From contig NZ_BSNQ01000003.1 in NCBI RefSeq assembly GCF_030160075.1, positions 2,148,383-2,212,382 on the forward strand: 64,000 bases of DNA. The letters are read 5' to 3'. The translations under genes and the position numbers were made by a program. Below are positions 18,672 to 23,079 of the stretch, piece after piece (the stretch's first letter is position 1; every line of letters begins with the position of its first letter). The notes under the pieces are model-generated. The model was given only the letters and a program-made list of their open reading frames with translations, had not been told where the DNA came from and searched no databases. Origin of the DNA: Dyella lipolytica (GTDB lineage Bacteria > Pseudomonadota > Gammaproteobacteria > Xanthomonadales > Rhodanobacteraceae).

Positions 18672-19493
18672 ATGAAGAAGCGTCGCCCCTTTTGCGCTGG
18701 AGTCAGTGTGCACCGAGGCTTTGCCCGGCGCGCCCGTCATGATCCGCGCGGGCGGGGCATCTTGCGCGCGCGCGGGGCTCTCTCGCTCGCGTTGCTCGCG
18801 GCGACGGCATGCCTGGCGGCACCGCTTCATGCGCAGTCGGCCACGGTCAGCGGCGCGGTGGCGGTCAGTTCCCAGCTGGTGGATCGCGGCCAGGCGGTGA
18901 CGCCGGCTACGCCTATTTTGCAGGCCGCTGTGTCCTGGGCGCCCGCGCCGGGCTGGTCGCTTGGCCTTTCCGGAGGAACCGAAATACGCTCGCCCGGGCA
19001 TGTTTCCGAGGCCCTGGCCCAGGTGTCGCATTACTGGTCGCTCTCCAGCGACTGGCAGATGCAAGGGGATCTGCTCTATTACGACTACCCGGGCAATGCC
19101 CAGGCCCGGCTTTTCGATCGAACCGAAATAGGCGTTAACTGGATATACCGGGACATTCTGACGTTTGGCCTGTCGGGCATCTGTCTTATCAACGGAACCC
19201 GTCACGAACCACGAGGTGCCGCCGATATCAATTTCCACTGGCCGCTGGCCTGGCATTTTTCTCTTTCGCTGGGTGCGGGTGTCAGCCAATCCCTTGTTTT
19301 GAATAGTGGTTCCTACGGTTACGGTGAGCGCATCAACACCGCCGTCTATCGGTATGGACATGCCGGACTGCTATGGAGCTACGGCCCCTGGCGGGTGGAA
19401 CTGGACCGCGTGGCGACGAATCCGGCCATACCCAGGCATGCGGGTAACCTGGTCACCGCCCCCTGGGTGGGGACCATTTCCTGGTCTTTTTGA
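18672..19493 (+). CDS. TIGR02001-like outer-membrane protein
   Basis: A 273-residue protein with an unusually long, arginine-rich N-terminus ahead of a signal-type helix (about residues 37-55, LSLALLAATACLAAPLHAQ). The mature part begins ATVSGAVAVSSQLVDRGQA and continues as alternating strands ending in a terminal phenylalanine (WVGTISWSF), as expected for a small outer-membrane barrel. The SSQ..DRG pattern resembles the TIGR02001 family of unknown function. The real start may be internal. It lies between the cytochrome set and the sigma factor gene, and no role can be given. Confidence 0.6.
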   Translation: MKKRRPFCAGVSVHRGFARRARHDPRGRGILRARGALSLALLAATACLAAPLHAQSATVSGAVAVSSQLVDRGQAVTPATPILQAAVSWAPAPGWSLGLSGGTEIRSPGHVSEALAQVSHYWSLSSDWQMQGDLLYYDYPGNAQARLFDRTEIGVNWIYRDILTFGLSGICLINGTRHEPRGAADINFHWPLAWHFSLSLGAGVSQSLVLNSGSYGYGERINTAVYRYGHAGLLWSYGPWRVELDRVATNPAIPRHAGNLVTAPWVGTISWSF

Positions 19494-19569
19494 TTCAGGG
19501 GCAACCTTTCCGCGCCGATAGCGCACTTATGTGGAAACTCGCCGCTATCCGGTGACCTCCTCCAAACCT

Positions 19570-20154
19570 ATGAACGAAGCCACCATCGACGCCGACGCCA
19601 CCGATCGCATGCTGCTCCAACGCATGTCGACGGGTGACCGTGTCGCGCTGTCGACGCTGTACCACAGTTATCACGGCAGGCTGTGCCGCTTTCTGTCCCG
19701 GCTGACCCGACGCACCGATGTCATCGAGGAAGTGGTCAACGACTGTTTCTGGATCGTCTGGCAGAAATCCGGCGAGTTCCGCGGCGACTCGCGCGTGTCG
19801 ACCTGGATCATGGGCATTGCCTACCGCTGCGGACTCAAGGCGCTGCGACAACATGGCGACGAGCCGGTGGAAGACGATGCTTTGTCGGACGATCGCGCGC
19901 CGTCGTCGGATCCGGATGAAGATCGCGAATTGCGCGACTGGTTGAGCAAGGGCCTCGATCGTCTTTCGGCCGACCAGCGCGTGGTGGTCGAACTGGTTTA
20001 TGGTGTGGGCCATTCCTTGGACGATGTCGCCGCGATCATGCAATGCCCAGTGGGCACGGTGAAAGCACGCTTGTTTCATGCGCGCGTCAAGCTGCGCAAC
20101 GTGCTTCCCACTTTGGCGGGCGAATCACCTGTTATGAAAGAGAGCGTGTCATGA
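19570..20154 (+). CDS. ECF-type RNA polymerase sigma factor
   Basis: A 194-residue sigma factor. Region 2 spans about residues 18-85 (YHSYHGRLCRFLSRLTRRTDVIEEVVNDCFWIVW and the FRGDSRVSTWIMGIAYR block) and region 4 lies near 130-180 (LSADQRVVVELVYGVGHSLDDVAAIM followed by GTVKARLFHAR). A longer frame begins with GTG at 19531, but ATG at 19570 gives the usual N-terminus. Its stop overlaps the anti-sigma start (ATGA at 20151), so the two are translationally coupled. It probably controls its own operon, though no promoter consensus was recognised. Confidence 0.9.
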   Translation: MNEATIDADATDRMLLQRMSTGDRVALSTLYHSYHGRLCRFLSRLTRRTDVIEEVVNDCFWIVWQKSGEFRGDSRVSTWIMGIAYRCGLKALRQHGDEPVEDDALSDDRAPSSDPDEDRELRDWLSKGLDRLSADQRVVVELVYGVGHSLDDVAAIMQCPVGTVKARLFHARVKLRNVLPTLAGESPVMKESVS

Positions 20155-20783
20155 CCTACCCCATGGATACCGGCCAGGATTGTCTCCGCGCCTGGGAGGC
20201 AATGCCCTGGGTATTGCAAGAAAGCGCATCGCCCGAACAAAGCGAGTGGCTGGACTATCATCTTGTCCGCTGCGCATCGTGCCGCGCGGAATTCGAACAG
20301 CAGACTCGCCTACGGATTGCGCTGTCGCTGCCTACGGAAATTCAGCTCGATGCGAATGCCGGATTGAAGCGCCTGATGGATCGCATCGATGCACCCGAAC
20401 GCGAAGAAACCCCTCATCGCTTGCGTTCGGGCAGCTGGCTGACCCGCGGACTGGTTGCCGCGGTGCTGGTGCAGGCGATCGCCCTGAGCGCGCTGGGCGT
20501 GAAGCTCTGGTCGATAAACGACGCACCGGCCTATCGCACCTTGAGCCAGGTATCGGCACCCGTAGCGCCGGGCAGCATCCGCGTCGTGCCCGATGCAAGC
20601 ATGACGCTGACCGATTGGAATGCGTTGCTGCATTCTCTGCGCCTGCAGGTGGTGAGCGGCCCCAACGATGTCGGCGCTTACACGGTGGCGCCGACGAATT
20701 CCACGACGACCACGCCACAAATAGTGCAGCAGTTGCGCACTGCGCGAGGCATCCGATTGGCGGAGCCCGTCGTTACGCCATGA
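20151..20783 (+). CDS. membrane zinc-binding anti-sigma factor with propeptide-like periplasmic tail
   Basis: A 210-residue protein. The cytoplasmic part carries a zinc-binding anti-sigma motif H-x3-C-x2-C (His37, Cys41, Cys44). A single transmembrane helix follows at about residues 97-119. The periplasmic tail (about 142-207) has the order helix, LQVVSGP, GAYTV, helix, IRLAEPV, which resembles the inhibitor-I9 or fervidolysin-type propeptide region of subtilases, including that of the next gene. The start at 20151 overlaps the sigma stop as ATGA. The longer open frame upstream is the sigma gene read in another frame. Confidence 0.85.
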   Translation: MTYPMDTGQDCLRAWEAMPWVLQESASPEQSEWLDYHLVRCASCRAEFEQQTRLRIALSLPTEIQLDANAGLKRLMDRIDAPEREETPHRLRSGSWLTRGLVAAVLVQAIALSALGVKLWSINDAPAYRTLSQVSAPVAPGSIRVVPDASMTLTDWNALLHSLRLQVVSGPNDVGAYTVAPTNSTTTTPQIVQQLRTARGIRLAEPVVTP

Positions 20784-22090
20784 AGCGTCGCGTCTTTTTT
20801 CTGGTCGCCGTAGCAGCCCTATTGAGTGCATGCGCGCATTCGCCTTCCTTGGCATCCCAGGATCCTCCCACTAGCACCGGCGGTGCATCGGCGACCGACG
20901 TATCCACCATGGATAGTCAGCGCGACATCGTGCTGGCCGTTGCCAATCCGATCGATCCGCCCACGACGCATGCCGGCTCCAGTTTGCTCGGCTATGCCTC
21001 ACCCGCGCTTTACGGTGCGGGACAACGCGCCGTGTCCGAACTGGCGGCATTGAAACAGCAATATGGATTGCACGAAGTCACCGGCTGGCCGATCAAGGCG
21101 CTCAAGCTCTACTGCGTCGTGCTGGAGCCCCCGCCGGGGGTAGAACGCGACACGCTGCTCAAGGCACTCGCCAAAGACGATCGCGTGCAGCTCGCACAAC
21201 CCTTGCAAGACTACGCCGTCTACGCTGCCGCCGATCGTTCCGCCGACGCGCACCGATACAACGACCCCTACGTCAACTTGCAGCGCGGTTTCGTGGAAAC
21301 CGATGCGGCGCTCGCCCACAACACCAGCCAGGGCGTCGGCGTGCATATCGCGATCGTCGATACCGGCGTCGATGTCACGCATCCGGATCTTCAGGGACGC
21401 ATCGGCGATACGCATAACGAAGTCGATGGCGATGTGTCCTCGTTCAACCACGACAGCCACGGCACGGAAGTCGCCGGCATCATCGCTGCCGACGCCGACA
21501 ATCATCAGGGCATCGTGGGCATGGCGCCGAAGTCGGTCGTCAGCCTTTACAAGGCGTGCTGGTATCCGCAGGCGGCCCATAGCGGCGCACGCTGCAACTC
21601 CTTCACGCTGGCCAAGGCGCTGGCGGCGATCATCGATACGAATGCACGCATCATCAATCTGAGTCTGGGCGGCCCCCCGGATCCGCTGCTCGGCAAACTG
21701 CTCGATCAGTTGCTGAGCCAGGGCCGCATCGTGATCGCGGCACTGCCGCCGGATGGATCACGCGGCGGATTTCCCGATAACGCACCGGGTGTCATTGCCG
21801 TTCGCGTAAGCAGCGCATCGACGGCGCCACCCGGCGTATTGAGCGCGCCGGGCACCGACATCCTCACCACACAACCCGGCGGCGGATACGACTTCACCTC
21901 CGGATCGTCCATGGCTGCCGCTCACGTGAGCGGCATTGCTGCGTTATTGCTATCGCTCGCACCGAAACTGGACGCGCGTACCGTCCATGATCTTCTGTTA
22001 CGAAGCAGCAAAGTCTCCAACGGCGTGCTTCAGGTCAATGCCGCATCGGCCGTGACGGCGCTGCGCAGCGCGCGACAGGCCAATCGTTGA
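20780..22090 (+). CDS. S8 (subtilisin-like) serine peptidase, predicted lipoprotein
   Basis: A 436-residue protein with a lipoprotein signal (lipobox LSAC, Cys18). A propeptide-like segment lies at about residues 84-146 and the S8 domain at about 185-430. Catalytic residues are visible: Asp194 in IVDTG, His227 in HGTEVAG and Ser377 in GSSMAAAHVSG. The oxyanion-hole asparagine, normally in AAGN, is replaced: the segment reads IAALPPDGS, with Pro324 in that place. The start overlaps the anti-sigma stop (ATGA at 20780). Gene coupling suggests a role in the same signalling unit. Whether it is an efficient protease is uncertain. Confidence 0.9.
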   Translation: MKRRVFFLVAVAALLSACAHSPSLASQDPPTSTGGASATDVSTMDSQRDIVLAVANPIDPPTTHAGSSLLGYASPALYGAGQRAVSELAALKQQYGLHEVTGWPIKALKLYCVVLEPPPGVERDTLLKALAKDDRVQLAQPLQDYAVYAAADRSADAHRYNDPYVNLQRGFVETDAALAHNTSQGVGVHIAIVDTGVDVTHPDLQGRIGDTHNEVDGDVSSFNHDSHGTEVAGIIAADADNHQGIVGMAPKSVVSLYKACWYPQAAHSGARCNSFTLAKALAAIIDTNARIINLSLGGPPDPLLGKLLDQLLSQGRIVIAALPPDGSRGGFPDNAPGVIAVRVSSASTAPPGVLSAPGTDILTTQPGGGYDFTSGSSMAAAHVSGIAALLLSLAPKLDARTVHDLLLRSSKVSNGVLQVNAASAVTALRSARQANR

Positions 22091-22146: not shown

Positions 22147-23079
22147 GTGAAGAACATCCCCTATACCGCCGGCCTGATGCCTGATGTCGCTATTCAGGCG
22201 CAACCGCATCTGGCCGACGCCCTGGACTGGGTGGGGATGGACGGCATCGAAATGCCGGTGCGCTTCGACGCTGGCGATGGCGAGGTGCAATGCACCCGTG
22301 CCCAGGCCGGCGCCTTCGTCAACCTGATCCGTCCGGACCGTCGCGGCATCCATATGTCGCGCCTATACCTGTTGATGGACCAATACCTGAGCACTCGCAC
22401 GGTCGACAGCGCGATGCTCGAATCCTTGCTGCGCGCCTTCCTGGAATCGCACAAGGATCTGGCCGATCGCGCACGCGTCAGCATCCGCTTCGATCAACTG
22501 GTGCGTCGCGCTGCGCTGCGCAGCGACAACAGCGGCTGGCGTGCCTATCCGGTATCGATCGAAGCGAGCCTTTGCGCCGACAGCTTCCGCATGGAACTGG
22601 GTACGGAAGTGGTGTACTCATCCACCTGCCCCGCGTCGGCGGCGTTGTCGCGCCAGTTGATCCAGCAGCAGTTTGCGAAGGATTTCGACGCCACGCAGCC
22701 GGTGGATTACACAGCGGTGCTGGCGTGGCTGGGCAGCGAGAAAGGCATTGTGGCCACGCCGCATGCACAACGCAGCGTCGCGCGCTTGCTGGTGCGCTTT
22801 GTCGACGGCGCGCCGTTGAATCTGATCGACCTGCTCGATCGCGTCGAGCACGCGCTGGGCACGCCGGTGCAGACCGCGGTCAAGCGCGAAGACGAACAGG
22901 CGTTCGCACTGGCCAACGGCAGCAACTTGATGTTCTGCGAAGACGCCGCGCGCCGCATCCAGCGTGCGCTCGATGCCGACAACCGTATCGCCGACTTCCA
23001 CGTTCGTCTCGAACACCAGGAAAGCCTGCACGCCCATGACGCCGTGGCCTACACCTCAAAAGGCGATTGGGGACGTTGA
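22147..23079 (+). CDS. folE2: GTP cyclohydrolase I, FolE2 (type IB)
   Basis: A 310-residue enzyme that converts GTP to 7,8-dihydroneopterin triphosphate, the first step of folate (and in some bacteria queuosine) synthesis. Type IB features are visible: RRGIHMSRLY, YSSTCPASAALSRQL with the metal-binding cysteine, and an ATPHAQRS block supplying a histidine. Length fits the family (about 300). The start is a GTG at 22147 after a 56-base gap. FolE2 enzymes are less dependent on zinc than FolE and are often made under zinc limitation; I see no convincing Zur site upstream. Confidence 0.93.
   Translation: MKNIPYTAGLMPDVAIQAQPHLADALDWVGMDGIEMPVRFDAGDGEVQCTRAQAGAFVNLIRPDRRGIHMSRLYLLMDQYLSTRTVDSAMLESLLRAFLESHKDLADRARVSIRFDQLVRRAALRSDNSGWRAYPVSIEASLCADSFRMELGTEVVYSSTCPASAALSRQLIQQQFAKDFDATQPVDYTAVLAWLGSEKGIVATPHAQRSVARLLVRFVDGAPLNLIDLLDRVEHALGTPVQTAVKREDEQAFALANGSNLMFCEDAARRIQRALDADNRIADFHVRLEHQESLHAHDAVAYTSKGDWGR

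Follow-up and report, generated by a model that had tools for sequence, protein, structure and literature searches.

What could tie an anti-sigma factor to the protease that is encoded directly downstream of it? This question is raised by three consecutive genes on the + strand (19570-22090) of a 64,000-nucleotide stretch of Dyella lipolytica DNA, here called the window, which encode an extracytoplasmic function (ECF)-type RNA polymerase sigma factor, a membrane anti-sigma factor and an S8 subtilase. The product of the sigma gene (19570-20154, with a start codon picked by eye from the translation) matches Pfam regions 2 and 4 above cut-off. The anti-sigma factor (20151-20783, 210 amino acids (aa)) consists of a zf-HC2-like N-terminus, a membrane helix and a tail, and the subtilase (20780-22090) has 436 aa. 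Our results are best explained by the three genes forming one signalling cassette, in which the anti-sigma tail is supported, by profiles and predicted structures, as a domain of the type that serves S8 proteases as prodomain. The genes are also tightly joined. The two ATGA overlaps described in a first-pass annotation of this DNA were confirmed from the stop and start positions, as the sigma stop codon (20152-20154) overlaps the anti-sigma ATG at 20151 and the anti-sigma stop codon (20781-20783) overlaps the subtilase ATG at 20780. Junctions of this kind (ATGA-like, -4) were counted at 47/52 sigma/anti-sigma and 41/49 anti-sigma/subtilase borders, taking the start codon nearest the upstream stop, a choice that favours seeing overlaps.

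The tail (anti-sigma residues 143-210, 20577-20780) had been proposed in the first-pass annotation to resemble the propeptide region of the subtilase, based on motifs shared by the two segments. All these motifs were present at the positions and in the order given there: LQVVSGP at residue 165, AYTV at 176 and IRLAEPV at 201 of the anti-sigma factor, and LHEVTGW at 97, LYCVV at 110 and VQLAQPL at 136 of the subtilase. Two-sequence BLASTP of the anti-sigma factor against the subtilase gave nothing (E=10), so the likeness is visible only with profiles. Alignment of 50 tails with 49 subtilase N-terminal segments by hhalign gave a score of 36.3 (prob 87.8, P 3.3e-6) and reproduced the register noted earlier; exchanging the two inputs gave 31.0. 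As controls, nine further segments of both proteins, which overlap in part, did not exceed 18.8. The subtilase segment reached no more than 14.9 after column shuffling (six times) or reversal (once), and no more than 15.3 in 60 further shuffles, while other ferredoxin-like families reached 20.2 (ACT), 19.0 (HMA) and 12.2 (AsnC) against the same 50 tails. Because the score lies above the segment, shuffle and family controls, and the fold is the same, the likeness between tail and prodomain is beyond chance, and the proposed resemblance holds.

Structure prediction, suggested earlier as a check, gave one fold for both segments and not two unrelated ones, as the AlphaFold2 models of the anti-sigma tail and of the subtilase N-terminal segment both showed a beta-alpha-beta-beta-alpha-beta arrangement. 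In the anti-sigma model the tail had pLDDT values of 85-96 by blocks, with a pTM of 0.39 for the whole chain. When this model was compared by VIA, the first six rows were all S8 prodomains (PC1/3, subtilisin BPN' and pro-subtilisin E) with Z from 8.9 to 7.8, although values below 8 may only indicate an arrangement that is common, and further proteins with a ferredoxin-like fold came close behind. POIA1 (1itp) was also among the structural matches of the tail (Z 6.8). Foldseek with the whole anti-sigma model found no match at E<=0.001, with the ferredoxin-like EF-1 beta and ACT at the top by E-value, and S8 prodomains stood out only by the target-normalised TM-score (0.73, 9fid_D) and in VIA. 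For the subtilase, in which a prodomain is predicted at residues 50-141 (20927-21202), residues 48-430 of the model matched the subtilisin pro-form 3wiu_C with Z 39.3 (336 aligned, root mean square deviation 3.3); 2e1p (pro-Tk-subtilisin) gave Z 38.9.

The family to which the tail points is PF22148 (Fervidolysin_NPro-like), the fervidolysin-type S8 prodomain, with which it shares fold and profile. At E<=0.1 this family was matched by 24/50 tails and 7/49 subtilase N-terminal segments, and at E<=0.01 by 13/37 members of a diverse tail set. Several tails exceeded the curated cut-off of 21 bits, namely that of the relative L036 (29.1), that of a paralogue in the window's own genome (L002, 22.6) and three others (28.3, 26.7 and 23.0). 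The window's own tail matches no Pfam family, PF22148 included, and its place in the family therefore rests on its homologues. Inhibitor I9 (PF05922) was absent from the families matched by the 50 tails at E<=0.1 and scored at control level in hhalign (18.9). A PDB sequence search with the tail profile gave 4 matches (best E 0.61), none of them a prodomain. Whereas the PF22148 prodomain forms the N-terminus of a protease, the domain found here sits at the other end of a different kind of protein, as the C-terminal tail of an anti-sigma factor in the membrane.

Whether the tail was captured from the co-encoded subtilase, as the first-pass annotation had it, is a separate matter. With 57 diverse tails, hhalign gave 41.5 against five fervidolysin-type sequences and 30.3 against the co-encoded prodomain, compared to 22.0, 21.9 and 14.7 for ACT, HMA and AsnC; the fervidolysin profile holds only 5 sequences, and among 60 column shuffles of it one gave an anomalous 131.7 over 17 columns, the next being 17.2. 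Since the diverse tails score higher with the fervidolysin-type sequences than with their co-encoded prodomain, the idea of capture from the neighbouring subtilase was dropped: a prodomain-type tail is supported by PF22148 and the homologues, but its origin in the co-encoded gene is not. Partner subtilases that contain the usual AAGN block of the catalytic domain were compared as two groups of 8 prodomain sequences each (L267 yielded none), and these scored at control level with the tails (18.8 and 20.6 for the set of 50, 13.7 and 19.8 for the diverse set of 57), while the trio prodomain reached 46.0 with one of the groups. Mirror-tree partial correlations of the tail with the catalytic domain were 0.18, 0.25 and 0.53 in three sets, and with sigma 0.13, 0.26 and 0.05; these values are weak and confounded by shared descent. 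At two other loci, L085 and L086, small open reading frames (ORFs) of 118 and 150 aa carry a fervidolysin prodomain (45 and 44 bits) and end shortly after it, and from their sequences they look like free-standing prodomain-type inhibitors.

Against zf-HC2 (PF13490) the window anti-sigma factor scored 14.7 bits, short of the Pfam cut-off of 22.2 that close relatives exceed, and H37, C41 and C44 were invariant. Structural matches of residues 9-80 included anti-sigma complexes with RsiW and MucA. Residues 95-121 (20433-20513) form a predicted membrane-spanning helix, modelled by AlphaFold2 and hydrophobic by inspection, and the tail should be located in the periplasm.

Between helix and tail lies a linker, modelled with low confidence (pLDDT <50 at 126-130), which is variable except for Y128-x-T130-L131. 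In 50 anti-sigma factors these columns were Y 49/F 1, T 48/A 2 and L 47/Y 2/F 1. The tetrapeptide (Y128-R-T-L131 in the window, 20532-20543) resembles the predicted autoprocessing site of the subtilases, [YF]-x-[VT]-[YLF], and on grounds of conservation and a site matrix we regard it as a candidate subtilase cleavage site. In the window subtilase the predicted autoprocessing site is Y145-A-V-Y148 (P4-P1, 21212-21223), assigned from conservation and in a register that we take to be that of the subtilisin BPN' prosegment. Trio subtilases were analyzed as a set of 127 sequences, 126 of them complete, in which 49 from relatives and 78 from named loci overlap and partly come from the same contigs. 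P4 was Y or F in 127/127 and P1 was Y, L or F in 126/127 of these, which would fit, as expected by analogy, a prodomain that threads the active site.

To score the linkers we built a matrix from 49 subtilase sites, with the anti-sigma composition as background. In 47/49 anti-sigma factors the linker ranked first of ~88 periplasmic tetrapeptides, and in 47/49 it was also first in the whole protein, although these are not 47 independent events because the anti-sigma factors are related to one another. A score of at least 9.3 was reached by 43/49 linkers vs. 0/16 tail-less control anti-sigma factors (best 6.26). A looser form of the motif was found in 14/19 class-wide anti-sigma factors, one of which (L155) has it at the tail start and outside the linker, vs. 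3.1 expected when each linker was shuffled, and in 16/20 phylum-wide ones vs. 4.5 expected. In the distant loci labelled as lacking AAGN (L139, L140, assigned by hand, L141, L143, L145, L148, L268, L272 and L276) the linker was the best-scoring site in 9/9. At L036 linker and subtilase site were identical over five residues (YRTLG), and where the third linker residue is Ala, as in L041 and L045, the partner subtilases are the two that have Ala there. The agreement between cognate sites over all 49 pairs was reached by 0/20000 shuffles and largely reflects clades.

The subtilase itself is a clear member of its family (Peptidase_S8, PF00082, 120.4 bits with a cut-off of 21.8), and its catalytic domain (21335-22021) contains D194, H227 and S377. 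The Asp/His/Ser triad was kept in 126/126 complete trio subtilases. None of these 126 had Asn at alignment positions 322-324, the usual AAGN block, whose Asn is presumably the oxyanion-hole residue; Asn was found at 325 in 24/126. As the curated S8 model is passed, we take the missing Asn as variation within S8, judging from sequence. Among distant partner subtilases a pattern search found an AAGN-like string in 22/30, that of L140 lying elsewhere. Following the catalytic Ser motif, 117/126 trio subtilases have Ala in place of Pro (Ala381 in the window), and subtiligase is made from subtilisin by two substitutions, of which Pro-to-Ala is one. The first-pass annotation had called the subtilase a lipoprotein. 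The window protein does have a lipobox-like LSAC ending at Cys18, found by pattern, but since such a pattern occurs in only 25/49 trio subtilases, lipoprotein status is not general. Three cysteines are also conserved: Cys112 of the prodomain (21113-21115), a lone conserved thiol, in 127/127, and Cys260 and Cys272 of the catalytic domain in 126/126.

Does the tail keep company with the subtilase in other genomes? The closest named relatives of the window anti-sigma factor are found in Dyella and then in Rhodanobacter. Anti-sigma matches were present in 41/100 genomes, the window's own included, and 52 distinct loci from this genome and its relatives had a sigma gene in 52/52 and an adjacent subtilase in 49/52. 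The three loci without one are L011 (contig end), L053 (gene missing) and L050, a 23-bit match that is probably unrelated. Of 80 named loci, which partly lie on the same contigs as the former, 78 hold the trio, and the two misses are one contig end and the L053 strain. The trio was found in Dyella, Rhodanobacter, Luteibacter, Frateuria and Xanthomonas, among others. Class-wide, a tail search found 20/369 genomes, with an adjacent S8 gene in 12/20 loci and three loci running into contig ends (L156, L157, L158). Phylum-wide, 38/398 genomes gave 42 matches, and an S8 gene lay within the 8-kb stretch in 18/20 loci examined of the 42. As a control, we examined 30 loci of 37 matches to zf-HC2 anti-sigma factors: an S8 gene was found within 1.5 kb in 12/12 with a tail and in 0/18 without. 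A survey of the trio had been proposed earlier, and co-occurrence of tail and S8 extends, with exceptions, well beyond the genus. A second complete trio is present in the same genome (L002, contig C3, ~98.7-101.3 kb), whose anti-sigma factor is 22% identical to that of the window. In Dyella subtropica (L053/L185) the sigma and anti-sigma genes are kept and a short ORF start is seen where the subtilase would be. A complete trio is also carried by a 1.28-Mb plasmid, pTomTYG65a of Sphingobium sp. TomTYG65 (L318), where it is annotated as sigma factor, hypothetical protein and serine protease.

From the gene order, the fold and profile kinship, the conservation and the motif that we observed, we infer docking, cleavage, an order of events and a signal as follows. 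The anti-sigma factor would keep its ECF partner bound at the inner membrane, and its periplasmic part would present two zymogen elements of the subtilase, the recognition site Y-x-T-L and the prodomain-type tail. The subtilase would mature by cutting itself after its own prodomain, and a subtilase with a free prodomain-binding face would dock on the tail and cut the linker after Leu131 as site-1 cleavage, upon which an intramembrane protease would free the sigma factor. Before release, the subtilase would be silenced by its own prodomain or by the docked tail. That the subtilase docks on the tail, cuts the linker and thereby starts sigma release is a proposal with about equal chances of being right or wrong. 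A more specific version, in which processing site and prodomain, the two cis elements of the zymogen, recur in swapped order in the anti-sigma factor and the subtilase, its oxyanion hole altered, acts as a slow protease dedicated to signalling, with maturation competing with docking, is tentative, and we would sooner expect it to fail than to hold.

Other systems combine the same kinds of genes. The CRISPR-linked CalpL-CalpT-CalpS system has protease, anti-sigma factor and sigma factor encoded together and thus the same three gene kinds, but differs in being cytoplasmic, Lon-type and activated by cyclic nucleotide. In regulated intramembrane proteolysis of RseA, which involves DegS and RseP (DegS: excerpts of PMC8103513), site-1 cleavage of a membrane anti-sigma factor is carried out by a periplasmic protease, as proposed here, although DegS belongs to the HtrA type and has a PDZ domain while here an S8 protease with prodomain-type docking is proposed. 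For the ECF54 group, excerpts of PMC8999054 describe a subtilase in the genomic context and propose proteolytic control, and the window trio is similar in having a subtilase gene near an ECF sigma gene. In group ECF26, RpoE6-EcfR6-SMa0142 of Sinorhizobium meliloti likewise has genes for an ECF sigma factor, a membrane anti-sigma factor and a serine protease next to one another. According to the ECF26 section of PMC6180224, rpoE6 and a serine protease gene are divergent, ECF26 sigma factors widely share this arrangement, and SMa0142 is reported as an RpoE6 target. We identified the pSymA genes by their arrangement because the record carries no annotation there. The ORF at the place fitting SMa0142 matches the S8 profile; the protease, which is encoded divergently, would by position be an S8 with an AAGN block, and a profile search found no tail match in the anti-sigma ORF beside it. 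The claim that no system of this kind had been described thus stands in part: the ECF26 protease neighbourhood is published, but the ECF26 section of PMC6180224 makes no mention of a kinship with prodomains, and no prodomain-like anti-sigma tail was among the matches listed in a search of the open literature, which leaves most subscription journals outside. The gene neighbourhood is therefore partly known, and none of the texts consulted described that the tail is akin to the prodomain, that the oxyanion block is altered or that both proteins share a candidate cleavage motif.

Several observations weigh against docking and cleavage by the subtilase. By inspection, the aromatic residue at P4, where the prodomain ends, has no counterpart in the tails, and window-clade tails stop only 4-5 residues past the last strand. 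The order of the elements is swapped, since the candidate cleavage site comes before the prodomain-type tail in the anti-sigma factor and the processing site comes after the prodomain in the zymogen. Judging from sequence, the missing oxyanion-hole Asn could mean weak or no proteolysis. Agreement between cognate sites is modest inside the paralogue clade (reached by 166/20000 shuffles) and absent inside the window clade (16535/20000), and of the nine distant loci without AAGN only 3 reach 9.3, the other 6 (4.2-6.0) being within the range of the controls; with AAGN-type partners, the linker scores best in only 5/20. Some tails also lack an S8 partner. Four of the 20 class-wide loci (L142, L144, L146, L147) have neither an S8 nor a caspase neighbour and no contig end, a caspase-domain (Peptidase_C14) gene replaces S8 at L152 (class-wide search) and at L275 and L278 (phylum-wide search), and two of seven genomes searched whole (G189, G410) have a tail and no match to the trio-subtilase profile. 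Because some tails adjoin caspase-domain genes, the general principle may be a tail plus a protease, with S8 as the common partner. The serine-protease neighbourhood published for ECF26 (PMC6180224, ECF26 section) counts on the same side.

That the likeness reflects nothing but a common ferredoxin-like fold, devoid of functional meaning, is in our view very improbable. The Foldseek ranking, led by EF-1 beta and ACT with no match at E<=0.001, and the PDB sequence search without a relative would fit this explanation, but it does not account for tails above the curated cut-off of PF22148, for the gap between the fervidolysin-type score of the 57 tails and those of ACT, HMA and AsnC, or for the S8 prodomains in the first six structural rows. 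If the tail is a prodomain-type domain, it could still act as a tethered inhibitor, which fills the prodomain face and silences the subtilase until this leaves, e.g. towards an external substrate, so that another protease can free sigma; the linker motif would then serve this other protease or be structural. Stand-alone prodomain-type inhibitors exist, POIA1 is among the structural matches, and 17/50 tails, mostly from the paralogue clade, end exactly 7 residues past the last strand, just as a propeptide does after processing. On the other hand, a pure inhibitor would have no need for a linker that resembles the subtilase's own site, and the lack of the aromatic P4 residue speaks against inhibition as well, and we consider a tethered inhibitor unlikely. 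We judge similarly improbable that the subtilase is a mere output gene of sigma and the tail a sensor derived from a prodomain that binds something else. In S. meliloti the protease gene is a reported RpoE6 target (PMC6180224, ECF26 section) and the S8 ORF adjoins an anti-sigma ORF without tail match, and tails persist in the two genomes without such an S8 and beside caspase-domain genes. The tight overlap of the genes, the linker motif and the zf-HC2 control, in which S8 neighbours follow the tail, are not explained by an output gene.

Upstream of the sigma gene, a conserved promoter-like box with the core GGCAACCT (19498-19511, + strand) was found, with the exact GGCAACCT in 15/28 close loci. 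Its role is suggested by sequence and position, and it would be a possible autoregulated promoter. An ECF26-like promoter (GGAA..GT pattern) upstream of sigma was seen in 2/28 close loci, the window not among them. The preceding gene (18672-19493) encodes 273 aa without a Pfam match at E<=0.01, and its 3' end looks conserved before sigma in close relatives. The gene after the subtilase (22147-23079) matches type I GTP cyclohydrolase folE2 and is apparently unrelated.

Many ECF sigma factors have, to our knowledge, no known trigger. If the anti-sigma factor is read via the zymogen code of the protease, as docking and linker cleavage would imply, tests of the trigger can be directed at a single peptide bond and a single docking face. 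The role of site-1 protease is played by an S8 enzyme in eukaryotes, S1P, and we know of no other S8 protease with this role. If true, the cassette would be a case in which site-1 cleavage for a bacterial sigma factor is done by an S8 enzyme, and a propeptide domain would have found a second use in linking a protease to the control of genes.

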